Source: Lachnospiraceae bacterium
GTDB lineage: Bacteria > Bacillota > Clostridia > Lachnospirales > Lachnospiraceae
NCBI GenBank assembly: GCA_014804365.1
Contig: JAAUZX010000014.1
Location: 1-64,000, forward strand
Direction: 5' to 3'
Length of the DNA: 64,000 bases
Shown here: piece after piece, positions 1,315 through 33,336 of the stretch
Layout: the number at the start of each line of letters is the position of its first letter
Numbering within the stretch: position 1 is the stretch's first letter
Position numbers and translations under genes: made by a program
The notes under the pieces: model-generated
Database searches by the model: none
Seen by the model: the letters and a program-made list of their open reading frames with translations, nothing else
Told to the model about the DNA's origin: nothing

Positions 1315-1531
1315 TCACATTTACCCCCTTATTTTTCAACACAGTTTTTATTTCATCAAATACCGCATAATCACCTTCCATATGAAAAACATCATAGCAC
1401 TCCTCAATAAATTTTAGGATGCTATATTGATCAAATAATGCATTCACCTTCTGAACAGATGTATTCCACTCTTCTGCTGCAAGCCGAAGCAATCTGACCT
1501 GCATAAAAATTATTTCAGCTCTTTGATTCAT
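1298..1531 (-). CDS. DUF3791 domain protein, probable partner of DUF3990
   Basis: A 77-residue helical protein. The pattern FMQVRLLRLAAEEWNTSVQKV, then a helix containing FIEECYDVFHMEGDYAVFDEI, resembles DUF3791 proteins, which are commonly encoded beside DUF3990. It has a good ribosome-binding site (AAAGGGG) and is the first gene of the three-gene overlapping module; its stop lies 17 bp inside the next gene. Antitoxin-before-toxin gene order is the usual arrangement, which fits an inhibitory role. The function is inferred from neighbourhood. Confidence 0.75.
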   Translation of the reverse strand: MNQRAEIIFMQVRLLRLAAEEWNTSVQKVNALFDQYSILKFIEECYDVFHMEGDYAVFDEIKTVLKNKGVNVNAGII

Positions 1532-1756
1532 ATCAGCATCCCCTTTCCTTTTTATTCTAATCAGGTATTTCTGTGCTATATTCTTTTCTAACTAACCCTA
1601 TATCATAGTCATTGTGTCGCTACGAATTGTAAACGACGTGTGCAACAAGCTTTTCTGAATATATTCTAACATCAATAATCCTCTCTTACAATGAAAATGA
1701 AGCTTTCACCGACTGACATTTTTCGTCCAGACAAAAACAATGCTATAACTCCTCTC

Positions 1757-4267
1757 TCACTCCGCCACCCTCAACCTCTCCGTAACACTTTCTCTCATGA
1801 CCAGACGGAGACAGCACAGCGGAACCAGAAGTGCGGCTGCGAACAGAAACGGCAGCACGATCCACATCGGCATTAGGGAATATCTCCATGTGGCGCACCA
1901 CGCGCTTGTCGTATGGGTAATCCACCATCTTCCCAACAGCCATGTCAATGCCGAAACCACCGGCACAAGGAAGGCAGTCAGCACACCACCGTATGTCAAT
2001 CCTTCATAAATAAGCAGCCTGCGGATCTGTCTCTGCGTCATGCCCAGACTCTCATACACCGCAAACTCTTTTTTCCGTACAAGCACGCTCGTCACCAATG
2101 CATTGCCGAAATTCAACACACCGATCAGCAGCAAAACCGCCCCTACAAACATAGGAATCATATAAGTATGGAACAGCGCGTTCTTAAACTCCCACTGATT
2201 GTCGCTTCGCATCGTAACCCCGATTCCCGTGTCCCCTATAAGTTCCTTCAGAAAAACTTCAAACTCTTCCTGACTATTCTGGTCAATATCTACCAATATA
2301 TTCCTGACACCACTGTCAGTAAATAATTCTTCATAAGTCTGCACCGGCATATAATAGGAAATGTTATACTCCGCCTTCCGGCTGTCGGAACCGGTAATCA
2401 TGTGGCTCTTATATGAAACAGCCGCCATGATCTCAAAAGAACGTCCGCCGATCTCCACCTTGCTTCCCACCGGAGGTGTCGAGACGAAAGACGTGGCGCT
2501 GGCACCCGCGGCGATCACATAATCTCCCGTGGCAAACAGGTCTGCGTCGTAGGAGCCTTCAACGTATTCTCCGTCAAGCAGAGCCACAGACAACGCCAGT
2601 CCGTCTATTCCTGTAGCAATGCCGATATACTCTCCGGTTTCCCGGAATATCTCATAACCCGCTAACCAGTCCGGTGAGCCCGCCATGGCCTCTTTTCTGG
2701 CAACGCCGTCCGAATCCTCACTCTCGAAATTCTCTACAATAATTGCACGCTCTTCCTCGCTTGCATACATAGGCACTTCCATCGTGCGTATCGTTCCCAG
2801 TTCTGTCACCGCCTCATGTTCCGCAAGCTTTTGCATAAACTCCGGTGTGATACTTCGGCTCCACGGATTATAGCGCTGAAGATTGGTAGCCGCAGAGGCA
2901 TCTGCAATCAGATAATCGCTGTAAGCAATATCCTCCAGATACTTATCCTCGTCAGCACTGACATACTGCGTCCAAAGAACACACAGCAAGGTTAGGGACA
3001 GCAGCATGGAGGCAGCCGCCAATGCGGATTTGCCTTTGTCCCGTCTGATTCCGGACAGCTTCATAAGCGGTATCACGGTACGCCGCGGCACTGCACCGAC
3101 AAACCGCACAGCCTCGGCAGGGCTGATCTTTGATACGAATTTCGCAGGCAGCATACAGGCCGTCAGCGTGATAAAATACGTGAACAGCGCACTGTACACA
3201 AACGGAGCCAACCGGAAAAACAAAAGCGCCGGATTCTGTCCGCCCGTATTTAAGATCACATACGGGGCCACTGCGGCACAAAGCGCAAATCCAAGCAGCC
3301 AGCCTACAGGAATTGCCGGAAGGCACAGATATGCCGCCTGCCCTGATAAAAGCCGGCCGATCTGCCTCGGACTCATCCCAAGACTCTTCACCCTCCCGTA
3401 GAATCTCACATTCTCTCCTGCGGAGATTCGCACGATACTATACACCATCAACATGCCGCACGCCGCAACTGCAATATTAATCATATAGTATGGCACTGCT
3501 TTTCCTTCCGCACGTTCTACTCTGGCCTCGTTATACGCCAGATTGGTATCATATACGACACCGTCCACCCCCAGATCAGCGAGCAGTTCCTCGGCCTGCA
3601 TATCCAGATCATCCGGCCGGTACAAAGTCACTCCCAGCGTCACAAGATCCGGCGCATCGGGACAGAGCCTGTCCGCGGCCGCCGGAGTGATCCATGCACA
3701 AGTCTCCGTAGAACCCATGTCACTGCTCCACCATCCGCAGAGCCGGAAAGTACTCACCCGCTCCTCACCGCCATCCACGGGAATCCAACGCAAGACCACC
3801 TCTGCTCCTTCCTTGTGCGGAATCGCCAGCGACCGCATGGTAAGCTCGTCCATGGCAATCTCATCGTCAGACTCCGGCATCCGTCCGAAAACAGGTACCG
3901 CCTCCGTTGCCGCCGCCCAATCAGAATCGACTGCCGCAAGCTTCACACTGCGATATTCCATCACATCATCGGCTAAAATCCCTATCGCTCTCACAAACAC
4001 CGTCTTTTTCACATCGGCGTGATGCGCGATCGAAGACGCCTGCGCGCTGTTTAACCCATAATACAGAATATGGCTCGTAGAACCGTAACGAACCTGATAG
4101 CCGTACAAATATCCGTCACGGATCACAAATCCCAATGCAAAAGAAAAGGTACACAACATACTCACCAGCGCAATCGCCGTCATAAGAAGTATGCTGCGTC
4201 CCTTATGAAATTGAAACTCCCGCCGCACCAGCTTACGGCAGACCTTAAGATTATTATTCTCTAACAT
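1757..4267 (-). CDS. FtsX/MacB-like ABC transporter permease
   Basis: An 836-residue integral membrane protein with the duplicated FtsX architecture. One N-terminal helix (about 25-50) is followed by a large external domain (about 55-250), a cluster of helices (about 255-380), another helix (about 410-430), a second external domain (about 435-710) and three C-terminal helices (about 715-825). The segments KSLGMSPRQIGRLL and ESLGMTQRQIRRLL are the cytoplasmic coupling motifs of the two halves. The gene starts 3 bp after the ATPase stop and is the last gene of the operon. Such pairs export peptides or lipids, or detoxify antimicrobial peptides with a linked two-component system. The substrate is unknown; the DegV-like domain encoded two genes upstream hints at an amphiphile. 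Confidence 0.92.
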   Translation of the reverse strand: MLENNNLKVCRKLVRREFQFHKGRSILLMTAIALVSMLCTFSFALGFVIRDGYLYGYQVRYGSTSHILYYGLNSAQASSIAHHADVKKTVFVRAIGILADDVMEYRSVKLAAVDSDWAAATEAVPVFGRMPESDDEIAMDELTMRSLAIPHKEGAEVVLRWIPVDGGEERVSTFRLCGWWSSDMGSTETCAWITPAAADRLCPDAPDLVTLGVTLYRPDDLDMQAEELLADLGVDGVVYDTNLAYNEARVERAEGKAVPYYMINIAVAACGMLMVYSIVRISAGENVRFYGRVKSLGMSPRQIGRLLSGQAAYLCLPAIPVGWLLGFALCAAVAPYVILNTGGQNPALLFFRLAPFVYSALFTYFITLTACMLPAKFVSKISPAEAVRFVGAVPRRTVIPLMKLSGIRRDKGKSALAAASMLLSLTLLCVLWTQYVSADEDKYLEDIAYSDYLIADASAATNLQRYNPWSRSITPEFMQKLAEHEAVTELGTIRTMEVPMYASEEERAIIVENFESEDSDGVARKEAMAGSPDWLAGYEIFRETGEYIGIATGIDGLALSVALLDGEYVEGSYDADLFATGDYVIAAGASATSFVSTPPVGSKVEIGGRSFEIMAAVSYKSHMITGSDSRKAEYNISYYMPVQTYEELFTDSGVRNILVDIDQNSQEEFEVFLKELIGDTGIGVTMRSDNQWEFKNALFHTYMIPMFVGAVLLLIGVLNFGNALVTSVLVRKKEFAVYESLGMTQRQIRRLLIYEGLTYGGVLTAFLVPVVSALTWLLGRWWITHTTSAWCATWRYSLMPMWIVLPFLFAAALLVPLCCLRLVMRESVTERLRVAE

Positions 4268-4270
4268 ATT

Positions 4271-4951
4271 CTATAAACTGATCCTCTGCTCCCTGAGCTT
4301 CCCGTCCTCCATATACAACACCCTGTCTGCAAGCTGCGCCAGCTCTTGATTATGTGTGATCATCACCAGTGTCCGGTGATAAAGTTCAGCAGTCATTTTC
4401 AACAATCCCGCCACATTCTGTCCGTTACGGGAATCCAGGTTACCGGTAGGCTCGTCAGCCAGTATGACCGACGGCCCTGACACCAGCGTTCTGGCGATTG
4501 CCACCCTCTGCTGCTGCCCGCCGGAAAGAGCCGACGGATATGCGTGCAGACGCTCTCCTAATCCCAGCAGTTCCACGACCTCCTTCAGATAATCCTCGTT
4601 TGGTGCAGAACCGTCCAACTCTAACGGGAACAAAATATTCTCCTTCACTGTCAGAGTTGGAACGAGATTATAATTCTGGAATATGAATCCCACCTTCTTA
4701 CGGCGGAATACCGCAAGCTGCTCCTCCCGCAAACCGGCGAGACTCACACCGTCCACAATCACTTCGCCCTCTGTAGGCACATCCAGACCGCCTATCATAT
4801 TGAGCAGTGTAGTCTTGCCGCTGCCCGACGCACCTACTATAGCAACGAATTCGCCTCTTGCGACGGACAGATCGACTCCATCCAGTGCCCGTACCTGATT
4901 ATCCCCGCTGCCGTAATATTTCTTAAGCTTCCGTACCGTAACCATATCCAT
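4271..4951 (-). CDS. ABC transporter ATP-binding protein (MacB/LolD type)
   Basis: A 226-residue ATPase with Walker A GASGSGKT (40-47), the Q-loop in FIFQNYNLVP, the signature LSGGQ (about 142-146) followed by RVAIARTLV, Walker B VILADEPT, and the switch His in MITHN. Length and motifs are standard for the FtsX-permease partner class. The start overlaps the upstream kinase gene by 29 bp, and no clear ribosome-binding site precedes the ATG, so translation is probably coupled to that gene. It drives the permease at 1757-4267. Paralogue of the truncated gene at the left edge. Confidence 0.95.
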   Translation of the reverse strand: MDMVTVRKLKKYYGSGDNQVRALDGVDLSVARGEFVAIVGASGSGKTTLLNMIGGLDVPTEGEVIVDGVSLAGLREEQLAVFRRKKVGFIFQNYNLVPTLTVKENILFPLELDGSAPNEDYLKEVVELLGLGERLHAYPSALSGGQQQRVAIARTLVSGPSVILADEPTGNLDSRNGQNVAGLLKMTAELYHRTLVMITHNQELAQLADRVLYMEDGKLREQRISL

Positions 4952-7655
4952 ATTGACTGTCTTTATCTTTATCCTTCTTTTTCACAAACATCAGACCAAA
5001 CACACCCACACCGCAGTTACTTGACACTGTCGCAGAAGCCTTCTGGGTAATGATCCTGTCAAAATGCATATATTTCTCCACTTCTTCCAGAATCTCTTCG
5101 ATCTGGTGCACCGTACACCCGGCATAGGTGAGAAAGAGAACGCTCGTATCGATCTGCTTACCGTGCCGAAGCAGCTTCTTCACATATCTGCTCCGTACAT
5201 ACTTCATATTGCCACCCATCTCTATCTTCCAGAGCTTCAATTCGTTCTGTGACATATGGAGCACCGGATGAAGATTCAGACCGCTGCATACCTTATGCAC
5301 CGCAGCGCTGACCTTTCCGTTGCGATAAAGCGCCGCCGTACTCGGCACAAGGAAATTGGAACATACCCTGTCCCGGAACTGATTTAAAGCCTTGCAGATC
5401 TCCTGGACGTCTTTCCCTTCTTCCGCCATAGATGCAGCGTACAATACCATAAGGCCATGGCCGCTGCTGATATGGGTAGAATCCACTATGGTGACATTAC
5501 CAAAACTTCTGCTCGCCTGCAGCGCATTCGGATAAGCCCCGCTTAAGTCAACGGTAGCCGTGATGTGGATCACATGCTCCGCACTTTCCAGCGTATCCGC
5601 AAAGAAATATTCATATTCCGAAGGCTCCGCCGTGGAAGAATGGGCATAATTCCCCTCTGTCTGCAAATAATTTAACAGGCTGTCGGAAGAGACCTCGAAC
5701 AGGTCGCAGAAACACCCTTCTTTCGTATGCACATAACAATACATCAGCCTGATCTGATATTTCTCCAGCAAATCTTTAGGCAGATCGCAGATGCAGTCGG
5801 CAGTGATCGCGATTTTCCGCTTCCTTACGCCGCTCACACGGTTAATGGTCGTCTCTCCTTCCATCTCATCCTCGTCTTCCTGTGCAACGTACTCGATCAG
5901 CTCATCCGGCAGATACTTTAACAGACTTGCCTCCAAAAGCGCCGAGTTAATGGGTTTCGCCAGATATCCGTCAAATCCCATATTCTGGTATACCTGTTCG
6001 GCATTCGTCATGACATTGGCAGTCAGGGCAACAATAGGCACCTTCTGACAGAACCCTTTCGTCTGGGCGCGCACCGCTTTCATCGTTTCCTCACCGTCCA
6101 TATCCGGCATCATATGATCCATCAGAATCACATGGTACAGATTCTCGGCAGTCCGCTTCAGACATTCCTTGCCGCTCTCCGCTGTATCAACTTTAATCCC
6201 CGTACCCCTAAGCAGTTTGATGGCTACCATACGGTTCATATCATTATCATCTACAACAAGTACTCTGGCATCAGGCGCCGTGAAGCTCTGTTTATATTTT
6301 GCACGGTTATTCAACTGTTTCTGCGATGCAAAGTTGATTACGCCGATGGGCCGTACATTGACAATACGCTGTTTGACCTCCACCGTAAAAGTGGAGCCTT
6401 TGTGGTATACGCTGTCCACATAGATCCTGCCGCCCATCATCTCCATCAGTTGTCTGGAAATATTGAGTCCCAGTCCGGTTCCTTCAATATGACGATTATC
6501 GCTTTCGTCCACGCGTTTAAAAGAACTAAACAGGTCGTCCAGACTCTCTTTACGTATTCCCATACCGGTATCCGTCACGGAAATACGCAGCATGATCTGG
6601 TCCGCCGCAATTCTTTCACCCTTAGCCGTCAATGTGACAGACCCTTCTGCCGTGTACTTGACTGCATTAGTCAACATATTGGTGACTACCTGCTTTATAC
6701 GTACTTCATCACCGTAGAGCATTGACGGAATCTCCGGATCAATGTCCACCTTAAACTCCAGCTCTTTCTCATGAGCACGAATCCATATCAGATTCACCAG
6801 ATCGCTGAACATGGCGCTGATCTCATACTGTGCGGGTACGATCTCCATATTGCCTGACTCTATCTTGGACAGATCCAGAATATCATTGATGGTGGTCAGT
6901 AACATCTTACTGGCATTCTGGATATTAATGGCATTCTCGGCAATCTCGTCGGAGATATCTTCCCTGAGGATCATCTCATTCAAACCGATGATCGTATTGA
7001 TCGGCGTGCGGATCTCATGGCTCATATTAGCAAAAAAGGCATCTTTTGATCTTGCGATCCGCTCGATTTCCTCTTTCTGCTTCTCCGTCACTTCCTGCTC
7101 TTTATTATACGTCCACACCTGAATTTTCATCAGCATACCGACAAAACAGCTCACCACCAGCATCGTGATATAGGAATCAACGAAGCTGTAGGCGCGGCTT
7201 CCCCTCGGCACCATATTCGGATACTGGTAGGCAATATAATATGTAATAAAAAAAGTAAGCACGGAAACCACCAGCGCAAAGATCATTTCTTTGCCGTCAA
7301 ACAACAGGAACACATAGACCAGCCCCAGCACAAACCAGACCGGCGTACCGCTCTCTATGCCCCCGCTCAAAATAAAGATCAACGGGAACAAAATGAGATT
7401 GGATGCATAGACAAGCAGCTTGGCAGCCTTGTTGATCTTGCGCCGGTCCGCGGCTATATGAATCGCAACAAAAGATACGACGCACATTGGGATCAGCGCA
7501 TACAACACCACAGGCGCCGCTCCCAGCGCAACGCGCCCCATTCCGATAATAGAAGCGACAAATGCCAGCATCAAAGCGATCCGCATGAACCTGTCCTGAA
7601 AATTCACCTGTTCATTCAACTGAGATCGTAAAAACCTGCGTATTCTCTTAATCAT
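4923..7655 (-). CDS. Hybrid sensor histidine kinase with C-terminal DegV-like domain
   Basis: A 910-residue protein. Six predicted membrane helices (about 25-170) lead into a HisKA domain with the phospho-acceptor His213 in MSHEIRTP. The HATPase domain has GLGLNIS, and the receiver domain has Asp513 in ILMDHMMPDMDG. Residues about 612-890 look like a DegV fatty-acid-binding domain: KIAITADCICDLP, the SSTAEPSEYEYFF segment, ATVDLSGAYPNAL and VDSTHISSGHG match conserved DegV blocks in order. Fusion of DegV to a kinase is unusual. The ribosome-binding site GGAGG is embedded in the last codons of the preceding kinase gene (8-bp overlap), and the 3' end overlaps the ATPase gene. The kinase part is certain; the DegV assignment is by motif reading. 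Confidence 0.92.
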   Translation of the reverse strand: MIKRIRRFLRSQLNEQVNFQDRFMRIALMLAFVASIIGMGRVALGAAPVVLYALIPMCVVSFVAIHIAADRRKINKAAKLLVYASNLILFPLIFILSGGIESGTPVWFVLGLVYVFLLFDGKEMIFALVVSVLTFFITYYIAYQYPNMVPRGSRAYSFVDSYITMLVVSCFVGMLMKIQVWTYNKEQEVTEKQKEEIERIARSKDAFFANMSHEIRTPINTIIGLNEMILREDISDEIAENAINIQNASKMLLTTINDILDLSKIESGNMEIVPAQYEISAMFSDLVNLIWIRAHEKELEFKVDIDPEIPSMLYGDEVRIKQVVTNMLTNAVKYTAEGSVTLTAKGERIAADQIMLRISVTDTGMGIRKESLDDLFSSFKRVDESDNRHIEGTGLGLNISRQLMEMMGGRIYVDSVYHKGSTFTVEVKQRIVNVRPIGVINFASQKQLNNRAKYKQSFTAPDARVLVVDDNDMNRMVAIKLLRGTGIKVDTAESGKECLKRTAENLYHVILMDHMMPDMDGEETMKAVRAQTKGFCQKVPIVALTANVMTNAEQVYQNMGFDGYLAKPINSALLEASLLKYLPDELIEYVAQEDEDEMEGETTINRVSGVRKRKIAITADCICDLPKDLLEKYQIRLMYCYVHTKEGCFCDLFEVSSDSLLNYLQTEGNYAHSSTAEPSEYEYFFADTLESAEHVIHITATVDLSGAYPNALQASRSFGNVTIVDSTHISSGHGLMVLYAASMAEEGKDVQEICKALNQFRDRVCSNFLVPSTAALYRNGKVSAAVHKVCSGLNLHPVLHMSQNELKLWKIEMGGNMKYVRSRYVKKLLRHGKQIDTSVLFLTYAGCTVHQIEEILEEVEKYMHFDRIITQKASATVSSNCGVGVFGLMFVKKKDKDKDSQYGYGYGTEA

Positions 7656-10587
7656 AATTGCCTCCGTTCTGACTTCCCGTAATCTTCTCCTTCAACTCCT
7701 CCAATACGCCGCCGGCGCCGAGGAAATCGAATTCATCCACGCTCTGTCTGATTTTGGCCGTTATTTCATTCAGATTGATCCCGTGATATGTGCAGGATTC
7801 CAGCTGTTTCAGAATATCCTCTATGCCATCGCTCTCGAAATTATCCAGCTGCTCCTGCAAAAGAGCTATCTGTCCGTTCAATGTCTGTCCGTCTGTCTCC
7901 TGTAACACCTGTCCCGTATCGGTATTCCCTGTATCTCCATTCTCTCCTGCCTCCTCTCCGGATGCATCCGATCCGGAATCAGGACAGCCATCGGGATAAA
8001 TAAAGGAATTCTCCGCAAGAGCCGCCAGAAGCTCTTCATGCTTCTTCATAAACTCTGCATGATGTTCTATAATATATTCGATCCGGTTTTCTTTGCCTGC
8101 CATCTCCATACTGAGGGCAAGCTCCGCCAGATCATTTGCTCCGATCCCTCTGGAATTACTCTTCAGGGCGTGTGCGGTAATGGAATAATTCTTCCAGTTC
8201 TGCTCCTCAAATAACTGCTGTAACTGCCGGCTTCTTCCCGCTCCCTGCGCATGATACATGGCGATGATCTCGCGCAGTCCTTCTCTGTCACCGCAGTAAG
8301 AAATGCCCTGCGAAATATTGATGCCCGCGCGGCTGAGTGCCTCTAATCCTTCCGATTCGGATGAAGCTCCTGCCGGTTTCTCTGATTGATCTGTGGCAGC
8401 GGGTTCTGCTGCCGTCCCGGGACTGTTCTGTTCCACAGCGTCCTCCTGCCCCGCTGAAGACTGTCTGCCGCCCCTGCTGCCGTTCTTACCGGAGACATCT
8501 GCGTCCTCCTGCATCTGCGGATCTATCTTCACCTGCTTCTGCTGCGGGATATACCGCTGCAGCATTCTCTCCAACACGCTCAGTTCAATGGGTTTGGCAA
8601 TAAAATCATCGAAGCCCTCTTCCATGAACATCTCTCTCGCCCCGCCGATGGCATTCGCCGTAAAAGCGATTATCGGAAGCGTCTGGAAATACGGCCCCGG
8701 CTTCTGGCGTATCCTGTGAAGCGTCTCCACACCATCCATCTCCGGCATCATGTGGTCTAAGAATACGCAGTCATAATCCATGCTATTCAATTTATCAAGC
8801 CCTTCCTGCCCGCCAAGCGCCATAACCACCTTGATCTGATAAGGAAGAAGAAGCCTTGCCATGACTTTCAGGTTCATGGCGTTGTCATCGATCACAAGAA
8901 CCTTCGCCGTAGGAGCCACAAATCGATAGCGGCTGTGCTGCTCATCGCTCTGCAGCACCTTCTCGCCATTTAGCACCGCTGCAATAGACAGTACGGTAAA
9001 AGGCTTGTAAATACGGAGCATATTGCTTCCGCTCTGCATCTCCTGATCATAGTCGAGGATCAATACGACCTTAAGCTCCTGCGCCATTTTCTCAAAAAAT
9101 GCCTTATCCTCATTGTACTCTTCCCAGCCGATAAAAATATGCGTGTAATTCTCATTCTCTATACGCCTCTTTAACTCCGAGAGATTCCTGCATACACGGA
9201 ACATAACACCGAACTGTTCCGCCATATGACGCATGCATTTCTCATAGCCTTCCCGCACCACGGAGTAATCATATTTATCCATATTGATATAGCTTGCAAC
9301 GAAAATACGGCTCTTGTTCCTGATGGAGACAATAGGCGTTTCATCCAGCACCTTCTGCGGAATAGTAAACTGGAATTCCGTACCGTTTCCGGGCTCACTT
9401 TCCACGGTGATAAATCCGCCCATATTGCGCACCAATGCCTGCGTGATGGCAAGACCGAGTCCGATACCGCCCTCTTCCCGGTTCCTTCCGGAATTGACCT
9501 GACTGAAGCTGGCAAAAATATTCTCCATATCCTCCTGCTTCATGCCGATCCCGGAATCTTTGATGCTGACTAACAGGTTAACGCCATACTCCTCTTTCCG
9601 GCTCTTGATCCGCAGGATCACGCCGCCTTCCTTCGTGAATTTAATGGCGTTTTCCATAAGATTCATGACAATGCGCCGGAACTTCTGTTCATCTCCCAGC
9701 AAGTTGCTTGGCAGATTCGCATCACAGTCCACGATCAGTTCCAGTTGCTTGCCGTTCTCAAGCGTCAGCGCCATATTAATGATATCCGTAACCGTGGAGG
9801 TAATATTATAACTCTCCTCCGCCAGCTCCATCTTCCCGCTCTCTAATTCCGAGAAATCCAGAATATTGCTGACCGTGGCAAGAAGATTACGTCCCGCAGT
9901 CTGAATATCTATGATATCGCGTCTCACATTCACGGGAATATCCTCATGCAGGATAGCCTCGCTCATGCCGCACACCGCATTGATGGGCGTCCGAATTTCA
10001 TGGGAGATGTTCACCATAAAATCATCCTTGCTCTTCTCCACGATCTTCAACTCGCGGATTTTTTCTACCAACTGCTCATTAGTCTCCTGTCTGGTGCGTA
10101 TCGTGATCCATGTGACGAACAGAATTGCATATGCCGAAAGAATATGTAAGAAGAGCCTGAGAACCTCATTGGCTGTCTCTACTTTGAATGTCCGCAGAAC
10201 AAACACGTGATAGGCTATGATCACCGTAGCGCAGAACAGATCAATATAAATGATATCCGTAATACTGAAGATACCGAGCAGGACGATCAGCGCAAGCATC
10301 GTGGACAACATCGAGGTAAAGCTCACTGACTGTGTTGCATAGATGGCAAAATTCACCCATGTCATGACCGCCAGAAATTTGGCGCGGTACTTATAGTCCC
10401 GGTATTTCCTGCTAAAAACGATCCATCCCGCCACAACAGTCGCTATAATGAGCTCCTTGAGCAGAATATGCCATGCTAACAGAAACGAGGAGACAAACAT
10501 CGAAAGCGAAAAAATCGTGAAAAAAATCAATACGATCTGTTCCAGCTTCCTGCTCATTTTCTCATTCCCAAACTGTCTCTCTTCCAC
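7648..10587 (-). CDS. Hybrid sensor histidine kinase with receiver and HPt domains
   Basis: A 979-residue membrane kinase. N-terminal helices (about 15-165) are followed by HisKA with His196 in ISHEIRTP and HATPase with GLGLAIT. Next comes a receiver-like stretch without a clear acceptor site (about 430-540), then a canonical receiver with Asp611 in FLDHMMPEMDG. A low-complexity acidic/Gln linker leads to an HPt domain with His806 in AHALKSNS. This is a complete intramolecular His-Asp-His relay able to pass phosphate to a separate regulator, possibly the HD-GYP regulator encoded just upstream. It starts with GTG preceded by AAGGTAGG; ATG at residue 11 is an alternative. Its last codons carry the ribosome-binding site of the next kinase. 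Confidence 0.93.
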   Translation of the reverse strand: MEERQFGNEKMSRKLEQIVLIFFTIFSLSMFVSSFLLAWHILLKELIIATVVAGWIVFSRKYRDYKYRAKFLAVMTWVNFAIYATQSVSFTSMLSTMLALIVLLGIFSITDIIYIDLFCATVIIAYHVFVLRTFKVETANEVLRLFLHILSAYAILFVTWITIRTRQETNEQLVEKIRELKIVEKSKDDFMVNISHEIRTPINAVCGMSEAILHEDIPVNVRRDIIDIQTAGRNLLATVSNILDFSELESGKMELAEESYNITSTVTDIINMALTLENGKQLELIVDCDANLPSNLLGDEQKFRRIVMNLMENAIKFTKEGGVILRIKSRKEEYGVNLLVSIKDSGIGMKQEDMENIFASFSQVNSGRNREEGGIGLGLAITQALVRNMGGFITVESEPGNGTEFQFTIPQKVLDETPIVSIRNKSRIFVASYINMDKYDYSVVREGYEKCMRHMAEQFGVMFRVCRNLSELKRRIENENYTHIFIGWEEYNEDKAFFEKMAQELKVVLILDYDQEMQSGSNMLRIYKPFTVLSIAAVLNGEKVLQSDEQHSRYRFVAPTAKVLVIDDNAMNLKVMARLLLPYQIKVVMALGGQEGLDKLNSMDYDCVFLDHMMPEMDGVETLHRIRQKPGPYFQTLPIIAFTANAIGGAREMFMEEGFDDFIAKPIELSVLERMLQRYIPQQKQVKIDPQMQEDADVSGKNGSRGGRQSSAGQEDAVEQNSPGTAAEPAATDQSEKPAGASSESEGLEALSRAGINISQGISYCGDREGLREIIAMYHAQGAGRSRQLQQLFEEQNWKNYSITAHALKSNSRGIGANDLAELALSMEMAGKENRIEYIIEHHAEFMKKHEELLAALAENSFIYPDGCPDSGSDASGEEAGENGDTGNTDTGQVLQETDGQTLNGQIALLQEQLDNFESDGIEDILKQLESCTYHGINLNEITAKIRQSVDEFDFLGAGGVLEELKEKITGSQNGGNYD

Positions 10588-10646
10588 AGTAACCTACCTT
10601 ACCTTTCATCCGCATTCCGTCGGTAATCCCTGTCAACCGCTCTTTA

Positions 10647-11714
10647 TCAACTGATACCCAGCACTTCTTTTAACATCGGAAGCATTTCCATGAACACATC
10701 GATGATCACCGGATCAAACTGTGTTCCCCTGCCCTCCTGCATGATCTGCATAATACGCTCTATGGGACGGACCGGCGGCTTATAACACCGCTCTTCATAC
10801 AACGCGTCGAAGACATCCGCCACAGCCATGATGCGCGCCGCCAGCGGTATCTCCTCCTCCTTAAGTCCGGTAGGGTAACCCGTACCGTCCCACCTTTCAT
10901 GATGGTACATGGCGATATCCTCCACGATCCCCACATAATGTTCGTCTTCCACATCACCGATGATCATCTTGATGATCGTACTGCTGTGCGTGGTGTGCTG
11001 TTTCATCGTATCAAACTCTTCCGGGGTAAGCCTTCCGGGTTTCTGCAAGATCGCATCGGGAATCTTGATCTTCCCCACGTCATGTAACGGCGCTGCTTTA
11101 CACAGATCCTCTATGTATTCTTCCGTTAATTCCTGGGCAAAAAGATTCCTTCTTCGCAGTTCGTTGGCGATCATCCGCACATACATCTGCGTGTTTTTAA
11201 CATGTTTTCCTGTGCTTCCGTCCCTGCTCTCAATCAGATTTGCCATGCCGACAATGACGGAATCCTGAATCTTACTGATACGTCTGGCATCTTCCGTGAT
11301 CTTTTCCGCCTGCTCTTTTACCATGTTCTCCAGATTATGACGATACTGATCCAGCTCGATCGTCTTATCCACCCGGCTAAAAAGTATATCCGGAACAAAA
11401 GGCTTGGTGACGAAGTCCATGGCGCCCATCTGAAAACACTTGATCTCCGTCTCCGCCAGATTATCCGCCGTCAGGAAAATGACCGGGATCGTCTTAGTCT
11501 CTTCTTTCGCCCTGATCTGTTCCATCACCTCATACCCGTCCATGTCCGGCATATTGATATCCAGAAGGATCAGCTCCGGACGATGATTCTCCAGATATTT
11601 CAAAGCGCCCCTGCCGGAATTAGAAGCGGCAATACGATACCTCGGCATAAGGATCTTCTGCGCCAGTGCCAGATTCGTCTTATCATCATCCACAACCAAA
11701 ATCGTATTTTTCAT
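10647..11714 (-). CDS. Response regulator with HD-GYP phosphodiesterase domain
   Basis: A 355-residue protein. The receiver domain (1-120) has acceptor Asp52 in LLDINMPDMDG and the conserved Lys in VTKPF. After a short coiled linker comes an HD-GYP domain with LHDVGKIKIPD, the HHERWDGTGYP block and VFDAL. HD-GYP domains hydrolyse cyclic di-GMP, and all metal-ligand motifs I can check are present, so the enzyme is probably active. Strong ribosome-binding site AAGGGAG. It sits between a classical two-component pair and the two hybrid kinases, making it the likely phosphate recipient of one of them. Confidence 0.93.
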   Translation of the reverse strand: MKNTILVVDDDKTNLALAQKILMPRYRIAASNSGRGALKYLENHRPELILLDINMPDMDGYEVMEQIRAKEETKTIPVIFLTADNLAETEIKCFQMGAMDFVTKPFVPDILFSRVDKTIELDQYRHNLENMVKEQAEKITEDARRISKIQDSVIVGMANLIESRDGSTGKHVKNTQMYVRMIANELRRRNLFAQELTEEYIEDLCKAAPLHDVGKIKIPDAILQKPGRLTPEEFDTMKQHTTHSSTIIKMIIGDVEDEHYVGIVEDIAMYHHERWDGTGYPTGLKEEEIPLAARIMAVADVFDALYEERCYKPPVRPIERIMQIMQEGRGTQFDPVIIDVFMEMLPMLKEVLGIS

Positions 11715-11766
11715 TGAATTCTCCCTTCGTTGACAATTGATTTCTCTATAATCAACTGTACTACTT

Positions 11767-12825
11767 CTAGTTTAACAGATATACGGAAAAAGTGCTGCCT
11801 TTTCCGATCTCTGACTTCACACTGATATACCCCTTCTGTCTGGTAATGATTCCCTGCGCCAGATAAAGGCCCAGACCGACTCCCTCCTGACCGGCAGTCT
11901 CTTCTCCCCGGTAGAACCGCTTGAATACATCGTTGTAGCGCTCTTCCGGTATGCCGATCCCTGTGTCAGTAATATCCACGCGGGTATAGAACTGCCACGG
12001 GCGGACGCTGATACGGATGCTTCCGCCATCCGGCGTATACTTGACTCCGTTGTCCAGAAGATTGCCCAGAGCCTCCGCCGTCCACTTGGGATCGTGTCTC
12101 ACCTGAACGGATTCCTCACATTCCACCGTAAATCTGATATTCTTGTTCTCCGCCTTTGTAAGAACACCGTTTAACGCCTGTGCGATCGTGTCATACAAGC
12201 TCGCCTCTTTAGCATGCAGCACAAACGTTCCCGTTTCCAATCGCGACATCTTAATAAGCGACTGCATGAGAAAATCCAGTTTACCGATCTGACCCGCCAT
12301 GGTCTCCAAAAATTCCGACCGTTTCTCCTCGCTCAGCCGATGTTCCCGCAGAATGCCTATAAACATTGAAAGATTGGCGATAGGCGTCTTGACCTGATGT
12401 GAGATGTCGCTCACCAGCTCCTGTATCGTCTGTTTGTCCTGCAGGCTGCGCCTCCATCCTTCATTCATCAGATCGTAATATTGCAGTAATTTACCCTGCA
12501 CCCTTGCCGTCAGGGTATCCTCATAAGGATAATAGTTCTCCGGCTCGCGTCCGGCCATAAGCTCATCCAGCGTCCGGCACAGCTCTTCTGCAAAACGGCA
12601 TACCTGCCGCCGCTGCCACAGACACCATATAAGCGCAGTCAGACACGTCCCTCCGCACAAAAACAATAATGTATACCGCACAGAGGCACGGGGAACCCAC
12701 ATCCACAAAACATACAGAAATCCTGCAAACAACGCCGTCCCCATGACAATCATCACCGTCGTGACCGCATGATTACCCACCGTACTGCCCTCTATATGCT
12801 TTCTCTGTGCCTGTTCCATTCTCAC
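11767..12825 (-). CDS. Two-component sensor histidine kinase
   Basis: A 352-residue kinase with two membrane helices close together (about 22-42 and 50-70) and almost no external loop, as in intramembrane-sensing kinases linked to ABC exporters. The HisKA acceptor is His143 in DISHQVKTPIA. HATPase N, G1 and G2 boxes (LLDNGVKYTPDG, DTGIGIP, GVGLGLYLA) are present. The GTG start overlaps the stop of the response regulator gene by 4 bp; an ATG two codons later is an alternative. Partner of the regulator at 12822-13520. Linkage to a MacB/FtsX-type exporter in the same operon suggests it senses an antimicrobial or envelope stress; the signal is inference. Confidence 0.93.
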   Translation of the reverse strand: MRMEQAQRKHIEGSTVGNHAVTTVMIVMGTALFAGFLYVLWMWVPRASVRYTLLFLCGGTCLTALIWCLWQRRQVCRFAEELCRTLDELMAGREPENYYPYEDTLTARVQGKLLQYYDLMNEGWRRSLQDKQTIQELVSDISHQVKTPIANLSMFIGILREHRLSEEKRSEFLETMAGQIGKLDFLMQSLIKMSRLETGTFVLHAKEASLYDTIAQALNGVLTKAENKNIRFTVECEESVQVRHDPKWTAEALGNLLDNGVKYTPDGGSIRISVRPWQFYTRVDITDTGIGIPEERYNDVFKRFYRGEETAGQEGVGLGLYLAQGIITRQKGYISVKSEIGKGSTFSVYLLN

Positions 12826-13520
12826 ATCCCCTGTTTCTTCTGCCAGACATATCCCATCCCGCGCACAGTCTTGATGTAGGCATGTTCCTCATCCTCAATC
12901 TTGGCGCGAAGCCTGTTCATGGTCACCGTCAGTGTATGGTCGTCTATGAAATTACCGTCACAGTCCCACAACCGCGTAAGTAAACTCTGTCTCGTGACGA
13001 CCTTCCCTGCATTGGCTGTCAGAATCTTTAATAATTTATATTCATTCGGTGTGATCGTCAGTTTCTCGCCCCCGCGGACTGCGGTAAGCGCTGTGAAATC
13101 CACCTGTAAGAAATCATCCCGATAACAATCCCCGACGGCTGCCGGTTCCGCCAAAGCGCTGCCCCGGCGGATCGCAACTTCAACCCGTCTCAAGAGTATT
13201 TTCATATTAAAAGGTTTCGTAATGTAATCTTCCGCGCCCAGATCAAATCCGTTTAATACGTCTTCCTCTAAATCATTGGCCGTAAGGAAGATCACGGGAA
13301 TCTGCGGATTACGGCTCTTAATCTCCCGACACAGTTCAAAACCGCTTCCGTCAGGCAGATTCACATCCAAAAGCATAAGCGCATATTCTTCCTGTTCCGC
13401 CAGATATCTGGCCTTGCGGCAGTTGTAGGCCGCCTGCGACACATAACCCGCCGCATCCAGTTCAAAGCACAGGCCCGTGCTGAGGGCAAGATCGTCTTCC
13501 ACGACTAAAATCCGTTCCAT
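12822..13520 (-). CDS. OmpR/PhoB-family response regulator
   Basis: A 232-residue regulator. The receiver has acceptor Asp52 in LLDVNLPDGSG and the conserved YITKPF segment. The C-terminal winged-helix DNA-binding domain (about 130-228) contains LTITPNEYKLLKIL and the recognition-helix region HTLTVTMNRLRAKI. Strong AAGGAG ribosome-binding site. First gene of the seven-gene operon and cognate partner of the overlapping kinase. As an OmpR-family protein it is a candidate for the phased 11-bp repeats at 389-429, but no such repeats are visible at its own promoter. Confidence 0.95.
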   Translation of the reverse strand: MERILVVEDDLALSTGLCFELDAAGYVSQAAYNCRKARYLAEQEEYALMLLDVNLPDGSGFELCREIKSRNPQIPVIFLTANDLEEDVLNGFDLGAEDYITKPFNMKILLRRVEVAIRRGSALAEPAAVGDCYRDDFLQVDFTALTAVRGGEKLTITPNEYKLLKILTANAGKVVTRQSLLTRLWDCDGNFIDDHTLTVTMNRLRAKIEDEEHAYIKTVRGMGYVWQKKQGM

Positions 13521-16188: not shown

Positions 16189-18219
16189 TCATGCTTCGGC
16201 GCTAATGACTTTCAAGAACACCTGCACCAGCTGCGGGTCAAACTGCGTACCGGAACACCGAAGCAGCTCTTCCGCCGCCTGATCATGGCTCATAGCCTTG
16301 TGATAAGGTCTGTCGTGCACCATGACATCATGGGAATCCACCACCGTAATGATACGGGACAACAGCGGGATCTCCTCCCCTTTCAGTCCGCCCGGATAGC
16401 CGTTGCCGTCCCATCTTTCATGATGGTGTAATATGTACTCCGCAATAGGCTGCAGTTCCTTGGAGGCACTGGCGATCCGGTATCCCTTCTCCGTGTGGCT
16501 CTTCATGACTTCCCACTCTTCGTCCGTCAGCTTACCCGGCTTAAGCAGTATTGCATGCGGAATCGCGATCTTACCGATGTCATGCAGCACTGCCAGCAGA
16601 GCCAGCCGCCCCAGATCGGTGTCAGATAGGTTGATCGCCTTGCCAAGTTTTACGGCCATCTCTTTCGTGCGTTCCACATGCTCCTCCGTTTCATAGTCGC
16701 TCTCCGTCAGCGTCTGTGTCAACGAATCCAACAGGGAACTCTTCTGGGACGTCTCATTCATCAGCTTCTTCGTATGCATACTGTCGGAGGCTTCTTTCAG
16801 CGCTTCCTCTACACTCTTGCTGTCATCTCTGATCACCGCAATACCGTATTCCAGATCCGTGTTGATTCCGGTATCATTGCTTTCACGGTACTGTTCCCTG
16901 ATATTTTCAAAAAGGCGAATCGCATACTCCTGTTCGACCTCGGCGAGTCCGGCCGCCATATCTCCGTCCTCCAGCCGTGCAAGCACGGCGGTATTCGGCA
17001 GGTTATCCCGCAGCAGATCTGCCGCTCTTCTGAGCATCTCATTGCCTTTGGTCCACCCGAACACATCATTTACCAGCCCGATCCCGTTGGTGTTGCAGAC
17101 CACTACCGTAATCGGATAGATACTTTTCTCGATTATACGGTTCATTCTGGTATGGAAGCTTTGCTTAGAATACAGCTGTGTCAGCATATCCCGCTCCACT
17201 TCCAGATTCTTCATAATAAGCAGATGTCCGATGTTTCTGCCCTTCTCATCCTGAAGGCAGGTGAAATTGCACTGATACACCTTCTCGCCGCCCTCATCGG
17301 AGTTTCTCCACTCAAACACCTGATCCGTCACCGTGCTCTGTAGTTCTTTGAAAGAAGCGATCTGCATGAAATCCATCATGCTGATCCTCCTATTCTGCTG
17401 ATTTAATATAGGAAAAAGCTCCCGCATGTCACGGTTCGTATCCGCCACATATCCCTCGTAATCGAACAGCACCATCGGCGTTCCCATATATTCCAGAACC
17501 ATCTTTCGGGTAGAATTCAGCATTCCCTTAGACGTATAATCAAATATATTGCCATATATGACCATCGTGATAAAACCGTAAAACAGCACCGAAAGATCTA
17601 TGCCCACCTTGAGCACCCCCGAGATATATCCGCTGCTGAACAAAATCACAATTACAAGTCCGGTCAGCATATACCTATATCTCCCACTGTAGATCTTAGG
17701 CACCGTATATACTTTTACAATAAGGACATAAACAATGACCGCCCCCATGAAGAACGTAAACCCAAAATGGAAATAAAATAGCGGTTTGGGCACATACATA
17801 AACTTGATCGCATATATACTGTACAAATTGTACTGATAACGCAGCACGATCTCATGGGAGATGTTGACGATAAGCAGCGCCGCATCAACCAGCGCGATCC
17901 CGACATGCAGCAGATAAATATATTTTCTGCGTTTGGGTGCCAGTATCTTATAATTCGTAAACTCCACGACAAACTGAAATGTCGTGACTACCAGCAGATC
18001 CATACATATGAAATATATGCTGGTGCACAAAGATGCCATAAAATACGATTTTACAATGATTCTCGCGATGTATGCTATATTCAGCATACCTGCCGCCAGA
18101 AACGCGTTTCCCGCAAACACGCCCAGACGGCTTTTCTTCCCATAACTTTTGAAAGCATAGATAATCGCGCATAGAGCGGCAAGCCCATGCAATACATAGA
18201 ACCAGACATTATCCCCCAT
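16189..18219 (-). CDS. Membrane HD-GYP protein with degenerate GGDEF domain
   Basis: About 676 residues. The start at 18219 is preferred because GAGGGA lies 7 bp upstream; an in-frame ATG at 18234 is poorer. About seven N-terminal membrane helices (first 220 residues) resemble the 7TM sensor region of histidine kinases. A PAS-like segment follows (LEYMGTPMVLFDYEG), then a GGDEF-like domain (about 335-460) in which the catalytic signature is replaced by LEDGDMAA, so it is probably inactive. The HD-GYP domain (about 500-670) is intact, with LHDIGKIAIPHA and HHERWDGNGYPGG. Predicted membrane-bound cyclic di-GMP phosphodiesterase. It forms a single-gene unit with its own terminator. Confidence 0.9.
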   Translation of the reverse strand: MGDNVWFYVLHGLAALCAIIYAFKSYGKKSRLGVFAGNAFLAAGMLNIAYIARIIVKSYFMASLCTSIYFICMDLLVVTTFQFVVEFTNYKILAPKRRKYIYLLHVGIALVDAALLIVNISHEIVLRYQYNLYSIYAIKFMYVPKPLFYFHFGFTFFMGAVIVYVLIVKVYTVPKIYSGRYRYMLTGLVIVILFSSGYISGVLKVGIDLSVLFYGFITMVIYGNIFDYTSKGMLNSTRKMVLEYMGTPMVLFDYEGYVADTNRDMRELFPILNQQNRRISMMDFMQIASFKELQSTVTDQVFEWRNSDEGGEKVYQCNFTCLQDEKGRNIGHLLIMKNLEVERDMLTQLYSKQSFHTRMNRIIEKSIYPITVVVCNTNGIGLVNDVFGWTKGNEMLRRAADLLRDNLPNTAVLARLEDGDMAAGLAEVEQEYAIRLFENIREQYRESNDTGINTDLEYGIAVIRDDSKSVEEALKEASDSMHTKKLMNETSQKSSLLDSLTQTLTESDYETEEHVERTKEMAVKLGKAINLSDTDLGRLALLAVLHDIGKIAIPHAILLKPGKLTDEEWEVMKSHTEKGYRIASASKELQPIAEYILHHHERWDGNGYPGGLKGEEIPLLSRIITVVDSHDVMVHDRPYHKAMSHDQAAEELLRCSGTQFDPQLVQVFLKVISAEA

Positions 18220-18328
18220 CTTATGTTCCCTCATTATCCATCAGTTCAGACACTGATACTTTATTCTTAGCATTCTGCCGACATACTCACAGATCTCCCC
18301 ATCTGTTCACAAAATAAACCGTATTAGT

Positions 18329-19836: not shown

Positions 19837-22800
19837 TCAGTCAAGCGCTTCCATCATGAGTGCTGTGATCTCCGCGACCACATTTTTAAACTCTTCTGCA
19901 AGATTGGTTTCCATTCCTCTTGCATTGATTGTGAATGTAACTTTCTTAGTTCCGCCGTACTGTCCCTTACCAGCCAGAACCAGAGTCGCTTTGCCCTTCT
20001 TATCATTCTTGCTGTAAGAAACAATATCGTATTCATCGTCTCCTACCGGATTGTTCTTGTATGTCACGATCAAATCATCCTTCTCCAGCTCGGTTCCGTA
20101 CTGACTAAAGAACTGCTTTTTCTCAGGCTTGATCTTTACCTTAGCTTCACTAATCATCTTGCCGGTGATTCTGAACTCAAATTCCTTCGCCTCACCTGCT
20201 TCTCCTACAACATAATCAGAACCGCTCAGCGTGATAATGACCTTCGCCGTATGACTTTGCCATTCGTCTGCTGTTATATCTCCGATATCCTCTTTCGTGT
20301 TGGATGCATACGCTACCGTATAATCCTTGTTCTTCGTAAGCTTCTTGCCGTTGTCGTATACAACCGGATTAGGCGTGTACCGAGCCTTACTGCTGCTGTA
20401 CTTCATATCCGGAACTTCTACGGTAATCTCACCGCTGTCCCATGATTTCGGCTCGATCTTTAATTCTACCGCTTTCTTCAGGCTGCCTTTGAAATTACCT
20501 TTACCTGCAATATTGATCCATGCCTTCTTCGTCTCGCTGGTAGTATTCTTGTTGCCTGTATAGGTCAGCTTATAATCCCGATCTTTTATAAGCGTCCTGC
20601 CTTCATATACAAGCTCTACATCCGGCGTAGCGCCTGCACGATTCTGCTTTACAGTAATCTCTTTACGTTGCAGCATATTGCCATTCAGCGCAACCTTCTC
20701 AATTGTAAAGTTCTTCTTGATCGTACCGCTGTATTTGCCCAGACCGGTAATTGTCATTGTTACCGTACCTGCATTCACATGCTGCTTTACATATGCAATT
20801 CTATAATCTACGTTCTTCTCCAATGGCTCTTCAGATTCGGTTGTCTTATCCTTCAATACCGGATTCTGGTATACAGCTTTACCCGTATAAGGAAGTTTTG
20901 TCTCAAAACCTGTTATCTCAATAGTATTTGTAGAGAACACTTTGCCCTTAATGGTAAAAGTCTTACGTACGCTTCCCACATACTTGCTGTCTGGTCCTGC
21001 AGTGATCACTACACTGGCAGTTCCGACCTGCTTGTTATTATCATAGGAAACCACATAATTATTAACAGTGCCATCCTCATCCTCTTCTGTCTGAGGAATA
21101 ACCTTGCCTTTCAGCTTCACGACGATCTGTGACTCTTCAAACTTGACCTCTTTTCCATCGTCATAATCCAGAGATTTCGGAATCGTCACTGTCGCTTTGC
21201 TTAAAAGATCCTTATCCTTTACAACCTTGCACGTTAATTCTGTCTCACCTGTATAATTACCTTTCATGGTAATCTTGATTTTGTAAGTACCTTCTTCTTT
21301 CGCTTTCTGTACTTCTGCAGTCTGCCCTGATCCGTCGTCAAAAGTGATCACCTGTGTGTAATCATTCTTTGTGCCCAGTTTCTTCTTACCATCTTTCACG
21401 GTCACAGCGATATTCTGCTCTCTTCCGTTATAGATGATATATTCAGGAGCTGTGATCGTCAGTTCACCAATCTCTTTCTCCAAGATCTTGAAATGCCCTG
21501 TAATTGTCTCACTGTAGTTTCCTTTACCTTTGATGATAACATCCGCATCTCCGGCTTTCGTATTATTCTTATAGCTTACCGTATAATCCTTCTTCGGTGT
21601 CAACAGCTTCGCATCATCATATACCTGTACATCCGGTTTGATTGCTTTACCTGTGTATGTCTGTGCAGGGATCTCCTTAAACCAGATGCCCTTATAAGCC
21701 GTAGGCGCAAAGTCAACCGCCGTCTTATCGGTAGTCACTACCTTGAATTCATCGTAGTAGAGAGTTGTACTCAACGGGAACTCTACACCCTCTTTGGCAA
21801 TTGCATTGCACCAGAGTCCGATGCTCTCGATTTTGCTCGGATCTAATTTTGCATCCTTGCTGTCTCTTCCCACAAACGCACTGAAAGGAATCGTTACCTT
21901 TACAGGGAATCCGTTTGCCGCGTTGTCCGTGTAGCTGTCAAATTCCTGCAAATAAACCTCAAACACCTGATTGCCCGCCGTAACCTGTACTACAATTTTC
22001 TGCCCGTTTGTCTCGGGAATCGTGTAGAACTCAAGTGCATTACCATCACTCCAATCGGCCACGAAGCTCTTCGTAGCTCCTGCCCATGCATCGGATGCCG
22101 CCAGCGTAATATCCATCTGTAAGCCATAATCTCCGCCAAAGACTTTTTCTGAATCATTTGTCAGAGAAAGAGTAATCTCACTGCCGGAAGCCTTATTGGT
22201 CGCCCATGTAAGTCCTAACTGCTGGCTGTTACCATTGTAACCCTCGAAATCCTCGGGCACCATATCGTCCTGCTCTGCCTCAACCATATTGAATCTGGCT
22301 GAGATTTCTGATATCTTTTCATTATTTACAAGCAAAGTGATCGTTCCCATGGCTTCGCCCATACTGACGAGTGCACTGTCTTTCAGTTCTGCTTCCCAGA
22401 CAGCTTCCTCCTCATTGTAAGCTGCCTTAAGGATCACCTCATCAAACTCTGTTGAAACTACGAACTGCACGCTGAGATCTTCCGCCTTAGAATCAACACC
22501 TGATACTTTCGCGGCTATGCGCGTTTTCGGATTATTTTCATCAGGAAGAATCCTGTCGCCTGACTGAGGCGCTATAAAATAACCGGACACATCGTTTTCC
22601 TTCGTCGTATTGGTAACGCCGCTGACATTCTTAAACCCACTGTTCATATCCGTCGCGAAAACACTTCTGCCGTCATTATAGAACCTGATGAATTCATCCA
22701 TCATCTCATGTCCGTGAAGATAACCGTCTTCTTTCTTCTCTACTGCATAAGGAAGATAGAAGCTGCCGTTTTCACCGAAATTCGCCCATACGAGGAAATA

Positions 22801-33106: not shown

Positions 33107-33336
33107 GGCAGATCGCACAAAATGTTCACGCAGTTGTCTTGCGTAGGAATATGAGATTTTCTTAATATTCCGTTCAATACCCAGTAATTTCGGGACAAGG
33201 ATGTTCCGAAAAGCCCGACCTGAGCCCGGATGGCGAATGTCGGGCGGTTACGTCCGCAGCCTCAGTTCAGCCGGAATATTTTAGAAAATCCATATGACGA
33301 AGCCGATAACTGCGGGAACATTTTGTGTGATCTGCC
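33107..33336. repeat. 230-bp fold-back element or structured RNA candidate
   Basis: A left arm at 33107-33172 and a right arm at 33272-33336 are imperfectly complementary over about 65 bases, with perfect blocks such as CACAAAATGTTC and ATATTCCG. The 99 bases between them contain three further hairpins: TTTCGGGACA with TGTTCCGAAA, GCCCGAC with GTCGGGC, and GCGG with CCGC. There is no ORF. It could be a MITE-like dispersed repeat or a non-coding RNA; I cannot tell the strand. Positions 33337-33492 hold nothing I recognise. Confidence 0.55.

Follow-up and report, generated by a model that had tools for sequence, protein, structure and literature searches.

In RpfC–RpfG, an HK-REC-Hpt kinase has a REC-HD-GYP protein as its output. 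BarA/GacS-type networks use accessory hybrid kinases such as RetS/LadS and, to our knowledge, contain no DegV domain, while the Dha operons of the dihydroxyacetone system employ transcription factors, not kinases. In Xanthomonas, RpfC is activated by the fatty acid DSF, which it binds through a 22-residue N-terminal region (excerpts of PMC5391125). For S. aureus FakB1, a fatty-acid carrier of the DegV family, excerpts of PMC8892158 describe a carboxylate-holding network made of Thr62, Ser95, Ser171 and His270, an acyl tunnel to which A121, A158, V162 and L191 belong, Arg173 acting as a latch and Arg205 as a key residue for docking to FakA, the last being 'completely conserved' in the FakB family. 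The locus presented here encodes a hybrid kinase that ends in a DegV domain and stands next to a second kinase and a putative c-di-GMP enzyme.

A membrane hybrid kinase with a C-terminal DegV domain

The window (the whole stretch of 64,000 nucleotides that was analysed, from a Lachnospiraceae bacterium) carries on its minus strand (4923..7655) a gene for a 910-aa hybrid histidine kinase, hereafter HK-REC-DegV. Its product starts with a membrane region (residues 1-190; 7086..7655), delimited by an AlphaFold2 model and hydropathy, with six predicted transmembrane helices as read off that model (19-39, 48-70, 74-96, 104-118, 121-144 and the start of 154-232). There follow HisKA and HATPase_c domains (residues 204-429; 6369..7046) and a receiver (REC, residues 465-576; 5928..6263), both placed by Pfam and by alignment rows, then a linker (residues 591-610; 5826..5885) predicted to be disordered (pLDDT <50 in the AlphaFold2 model, which covers the whole 910-aa protein with a mean pLDDT of 78.6) and finally the DegV domain (residues 614-893; 4977..5816), recognized by profile and by fold; all these segments are on the minus strand. 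A preliminary description of this DNA had read the frame as a complete kinase and receiver followed by a DegV domain, which a profile search of the C-terminal residues bore out: residues 614-893 match PF02645 with E=7e-44 and 150.6 bits, for a cut-off of 27, over profile positions 1-280 of 280, that is the complete domain. The same residues are predicted to adopt the DegV/EDD fold and belong to the PF02645 family, and a fold comparison with the PDB ranks DegV/FakB structures first, many of them with titles mentioning a bound fatty acid.

The kinase itself appears intact. His213, Asn326, Asp362 and Gly392 of HisKA/HATPase_c, as well as Asp513 and Lys567 of the receiver, are unchanged in 63 out of 63 full-length alignment rows, and the 910-aa protein has the HisKA, HATPase_c and REC domains of a hybrid histidine kinase together with their catalytic residues. 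The REC motif was matched in 71 of 73 loci, the two exceptions (L172 and L181) both lying outside the 63 rows. Mean identity between the window protein and 62 relatives is 49% in the membrane part, 72% in DegV and 78% in REC, and a comparison among relatives gave a low dN for HK-REC-DegV. A membrane input that evolves fast, joined to a DegV domain that evolves slowly, would fit a DegV reading one conserved cytosolic cue.

Distribution of the fusion

Related loci were defined as the best 80 of 468 by score, found with the 910-aa protein as query. In 68 of these 80, the kinase/receiver core and DegV lie within one ORF, with some irregularities (the kinase is in the preceding frame in L009 and L060, L013 is cut, the DegV of L047 is in two frames and L075 is reordered), and the remaining 12 consist of L057, whose contig ends before DegV, and 11 other kinases. 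Recurrence of the fusion in other Lachnospiraceae, a check suggested by the preliminary description, was also confirmed by a survey of 200 genomes of this family, 35 of which have DegV in frames of at least 500 aa (48 copies). Among the 32 of these genomes that were read (all but G079, G120 and G168), 31 have HK-REC-DegV and one has HATPase-DegV. Five relay-type copies coexist in G599, four of them in frames of at least 900 aa and one as DegV-Hpt. This spread, together with the low dN, makes it practically inconceivable that two genes were joined in this frame by chance or by assembly, or that its last domain is decayed; an assembly or frame fusion was thus ruled out and the gene taken as genuine.

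The kinase form was also looked for beyond this family. Among the matches listed for 398 genomes of the phylum (which reach about E=2e-38, with at most six candidates scored per genome), frames of at least 724 aa were seen only in G000, G444 and G180, all Lachnospiraceae; G268 has a 580-aa frame with DegV and no kinase match. A survey of the phylum to which G596 belongs (198 genomes) gave seven genomes with a match and the kinase form only in G596, one of the other six having been read. The sole kinase form of this survey is a Treponema-labelled locus, L061, and the label is believable because a Borrelia_P83-family gene (E=5.4e-90) flanks it. Five of these spirochaete genomes contain DegV in frames of 611-627 aa, the one read being that of L184. 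A tblastn search of a plasmid collection returned no record with 80% query coverage among the matches listed (at least 5000 records).

A conserved three-gene cassette

Seven co-directional genes on the minus strand surround and include the fusion. These are, in order, an OmpR-type regulator and a histidine kinase (together 11767..13520, upstream of the cassette), a 355-aa REC-HD-GYP response regulator (10647..11714), a second kinase that we call HKb (7648..10587), HK-REC-DegV, the ABC ATPase of an FtsX-type exporter (4271..4951) and an FtsX-type permease assigned by Pfam (1757..4267). The REC-HD-GYP regulator, whose HD and GYP motifs were seen by eye, is a probable c-di-GMP phosphodiesterase judging from these features. 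HKb, the usual partner of the fusion, is a 979-aa protein with a TM-HisKA-HATPase-REC-Hpt order, in which about 150 residues without Pfam match precede REC and the Hpt is a weak match (24.9 bits for a cut-off of 24.6). Its gene shares 8 bp with the start of HK-REC-DegV, the end of which overlaps the ABC ATPase gene by 29 bp. The outer kinase/OmpR pair and ABC/FtsX genes resemble what we take to be a Bce-type operon enclosing the three-gene relay, which lies between them (1757-13520) as if inserted, an arrangement confined to near relatives. The gene of another c-di-GMP protein (16189-18234), of 681 aa with a 7TM region and GGDEF and HD-type domains, lies upstream of the HD-GYP gene at a distance of about 4.5 kb, and since the window genome has 24 GGDEF matches, c-di-GMP signalling is likely to be active in it.

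A synteny scan of 85 loci, 84 with one DegV ORF each and one (L057) with none, revealed that the conserved unit consists of the REC-HD-GYP regulator, the TM-HK-REC-Hpt kinase HKb and HK-REC-DegV, although these counts are not independent because the 910-aa protein or its DegV served as the query that retrieved most loci. Of the 81 DegV ORFs preceded by 3.2 kb of sequence or more, 75 have HKb immediately upstream; among the six exceptions it is one or two frames further up in L009, L060, L122 and L171, and was not seen in L170 and L173. An HD-GYP or GGDEF gene lies nearby in 74 of 80 loci (HD-GYP in 65, GGDEF in 11), and none was found nearby in the other six (L064, L065, L122, L172, L178 and L181). 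The preliminary description had the relay controlling the adjacent exporter, a proposal that this comparison does not support: an ABC gene is directly downstream of only 8 of 84 DegV ORFs (81 of which are followed by 700 bp of sequence or more), in L001-L007 and L016, all near relatives, so the exporter link is local rather than general, and the usual neighbours are HKb and a c-di-GMP enzyme.

Other features of the window include a protein of 2549 aa that carries GH26 and CBM27 domains (19837-27486), minus-strand DUF3990 and DUF3791 genes side by side (748-1531) and, as the one match of an Rfam scan at gathering scores, a TwoAYGGAY RNA away from the cassette (33139-33305, 106 bits, E=5.8e-18).

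The DegV pocket compared with FakB

Residues equivalent to those of FakB1 were placed via profile alignment to FakB1 and MAFFT in 141 DegV domains, 103 of which are in kinases, three in REC fragments, one in a DegV-Hpt protein and 34 single; this set leaves out 11 loci without DegV (L069-L074 and L076-L080), copies identical to another one and DegV matches shorter than about 255 residues. Two single domains encoded beside HKb (L167 and L168) were counted as relay DegVs, giving 109 relay and 32 standalone domains. A synteny-based residue count omitted these two (107 relay DegVs), neither of which has Arg at the place of Arg205. The standalone set is a non-random sample of 28 domains picked for their likeness to the relay profile, three genes from the window genome itself and one from L124; of the eight DegV matches in the window genome, four (L083, L085, L087 and L088) are outside this set.

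The two sets differ at the head-group end and at the FakA-docking position. The His270 equivalent is His in all 32 standalone domains, while the 109 relay DegVs have Asn in 105, His in one and others in three. The Arg205 equivalent is Arg in 32/32 standalone domains versus 1/109 relay DegVs, with Met in the window protein. Two alignments of this region lie one column apart, and we followed the one in which the standalone Arg-Gly lines up with the relay Val-Gly; Arg is absent under either, since the alternative column is Gly in 102 of the 103 kinase-fused rows. The Arg173 latch is Arg in 32/32 standalone domains versus Lys in 61, Arg in 28 and others in 20 of the 109 relay DegVs, the window protein having Lys. 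At the other positions of the carboxylate network, relay DegVs have Ser/Thr for Thr62 in 99 of 109 and Ser for Ser95 in 87, the latter being lost in 22, and only His270 separates the two sets cleanly because the Ser171 equivalent is Gly in 32/32 standalone domains. With Ser, Ser, Asn and Asn at the places of Thr62, Ser95, Ser171 and His270, the last being residue 880 of the protein and position 271 of the domain alignment, the window DegV lacks the complete carboxylate network of FakB, just as it lacks Arg205 and the Arg173 latch of the carriers.

These replacements bear on whether the domain could be an ordinary FakB that the kinase tethers to the membrane and that passes fatty acid to FakA. 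Family and fold agree with this possibility, and FakA is present in the window genome and in two of the four other genomes searched. However, the other two of these four (G596 and G598, completeness not stated) have relay DegVs and no FakA match, other DegV genes of the window genome could serve FakA and, above all, the docking Arg is lost, for which reason we rejected this very improbable role. FakA and DegV genes show oddities of their own: by eye, the protein encoded at 1483-3309 (minus strand) of L184 seems to combine an N-terminal part of FakA type with a DegV in which the Gly-Gly-Arg and His motifs are present; in the window genome, a DegV near the FakA gene (L131, G000:C31:8791-9637) is itself split over two adjacent frames, which is either a broken gene or an assembly error; and in a 469-aa protein of L123 (7817-9226), about 190 residues without Pfam match precede the DegV domain.

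Most positions of the acyl tunnel are kept. The equivalent of A121 is Gly in 101 of 109 relay DegVs, that of V162 is Val/Ile/Leu/Met in 107 and that of L191 is Leu/Ile/Val/Met in all 109, whereas that of A158 is Ser/Thr in 103 (Ala in 16 of the 32 standalone domains). Tunnel residues that stay small or hydrophobic, combined with the replacement of His270 and Arg205, suggest that relay DegVs have probably kept the acyl tunnel, altered the head-group end and lost FakA docking. Fatty-acid binding may therefore not be carried over unchanged, and the changed carboxylate network together with a polar residue at A158 may have weakened the binding of free fatty acids or favoured another ligand. It is conceivable that the domain is instead a binding or docking module with a non-lipid ligand, or a ligand-free surface that holds the kinases together. 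We regard this as unlikely, if by no means negligible, in view of the A121, V162 and L191 equivalents and of the DegV/FakB structures, many titled as fatty-acid bound, among the top fold matches. In genome sequences, relay DegVs can be told from carrier FakBs by a signature, an Asn where FakB has its His together with the absence of Arg205.

Varied positions of DegV beside HKb

HK-REC-DegV is the main form in which the domain occurs, but others exist. It is followed by Hpt (HK-REC-DegV-Hpt) in L121, by Pfam, and in L174, L176 and L180, by local comparison. In L167 and L168, DegV is a separate gene that starts inside the end of HKb, by 4 bp and 13 bp, respectively (first start codon); L179 encodes DegV-Hpt without a kinase, the Hpt being under its cut-off; and in L075, the gene immediately following HKb encodes a dCache-HK-REC-Hpt protein with DegV at its N-terminus. 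Finally, proteins in L170 (8951-11563) and L173 (7790-10378) have an HATPase without HisKA match and a relay-type DegV at the end, are followed by a GGDEF gene, and are possibly non-phosphorylating kinases. DegV thus travels while HKb mostly stays, which favours HKb, or the relay to which HKb belongs, as what DegV seems to act on, and speaks against DegV being the mere output of the preceding receiver.

In the fusion, DegV occupies the place behind REC that an output domain would have, and this counts against its being an input. REC phosphorylation might then open or close the lipid pocket, the kinase controlling lipid capture or release, and the REC-DegV order with a flexible linker does resemble a response regulator with its effector. 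However, the DegV of L167, L168, L179 and L075 is not behind a REC of its own protein and, since the FakA-docking Arg is lost, a captured fatty acid would not reach lipid synthesis by the known route. An output role therefore appears improbable to us, and an input role is preferred in what follows.

A tree of 108 of the 141 domains (those <85% identical), rooted at the midpoint, places 77 relay and 31 standalone DegVs on the two sides of one branch with a support of 100/100, the bootstrap being not yet settled. If the root lies between these sides, the separate-gene forms of L167 and L168 branch first among relay DegVs (98/84 and 100/97), which makes plausible a history in which DegV was coupled to HKb first and fused later.

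A model for lipid input into a c-di-GMP relay

We propose that a FakB-type domain has been repurposed to feed a cytosolic signal, probably a lipid, into a c-di-GMP phosphorelay, a proposal we hold with little more than even confidence. The C-terminal DegV of the membrane hybrid kinase would be a FakB-type ligand-binding domain turned into a cytosolic input, the pocket of which, when occupied (most likely by an acyl lipid from the inner leaflet), would alter its contact with the relay. DegV would thereby tune the flow of phosphate through HK-REC-DegV and the adjacent HKb to REC-HD-GYP, the presumed target, altering c-di-GMP, while in some related loci a GGDEF regulator would be the end of the relay instead. 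Cytosolic fatty-acid sensing had already been put forward in the preliminary description; a cytosolic sensor is still the best reading, but the domain is not an ordinary FakB, as His270 and Arg205 are replaced.

A broader and decidedly more tentative view, which we would sooner see doubted than taken for granted, is that of a signalling family widespread in Lachnospiraceae, with one occurrence in a Treponema genome bin, whose c-di-GMP phosphorelay acquired a lipid receptor derived from FakB, initially by coupling to HKb and later by fusion to kinases and Hpt domains. DSF/Rpf fatty-acid signalling would then have a Gram-positive counterpart with a new receptor of altered head-group preference. 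If DegV is an input, acyl-lipid supply or a lipid signal would be linked to c-di-GMP in these bacteria. The system offers a defined three-gene cassette and a one-domain protein available for purification, and a handle on the possible roles of DegV paralogues other than FakA partners.

Comparison with known systems

Relay DegVs share with the FakB/DegV carriers (PF02645, TIGR00762; S. aureus FakB1, 5uto) a whole-domain match, the predicted fold and small or hydrophobic residues at three of the four tunnel positions named above, but differ from them by His270 changed to Asn, the absence of Arg205, an Arg173 that is often Lys and their fusion or coupling to a kinase relay. No description of a DegV-kinase fusion was found among the matches listed in a search of titles and abstract openings of the open-licence PMC literature, and the DegV mentioned in the accessible portion of PMC12688256 is a separate gene. 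The parts are known, and their combination into a DegV-kinase relay appears in none of the listed titles and abstract openings, although databases may already label these proteins DegV family. DhaQ and DhaR-DhaK of the Dha operons are, going by PDB entry titles, EDD-fold proteins that serve as regulatory partners, as relay DegVs would. The top NCBIfam match of HKb is BarA (317.6 bits, under the 890-bit cut-off) and, as in BarA/GacS networks, two adjacent kinases take part in one putative relay; unlike in these networks, the nearby output of the HKb relay is a c-di-GMP enzyme. The likeness to RpfC–RpfG lies in an HK-REC-Hpt gene beside a REC-HD-GYP gene (7648-11714 in the window, the Hpt being weak) combined with a fatty-acid-type binding domain. 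The window relay differs by its separate DegV domain and its second kinase, and the two systems, which belong to different phyla, are likened by layout and not by homology. With this proviso, and with no claim of membership, RpfC/RpfG may be regarded as the nearest working parallel.
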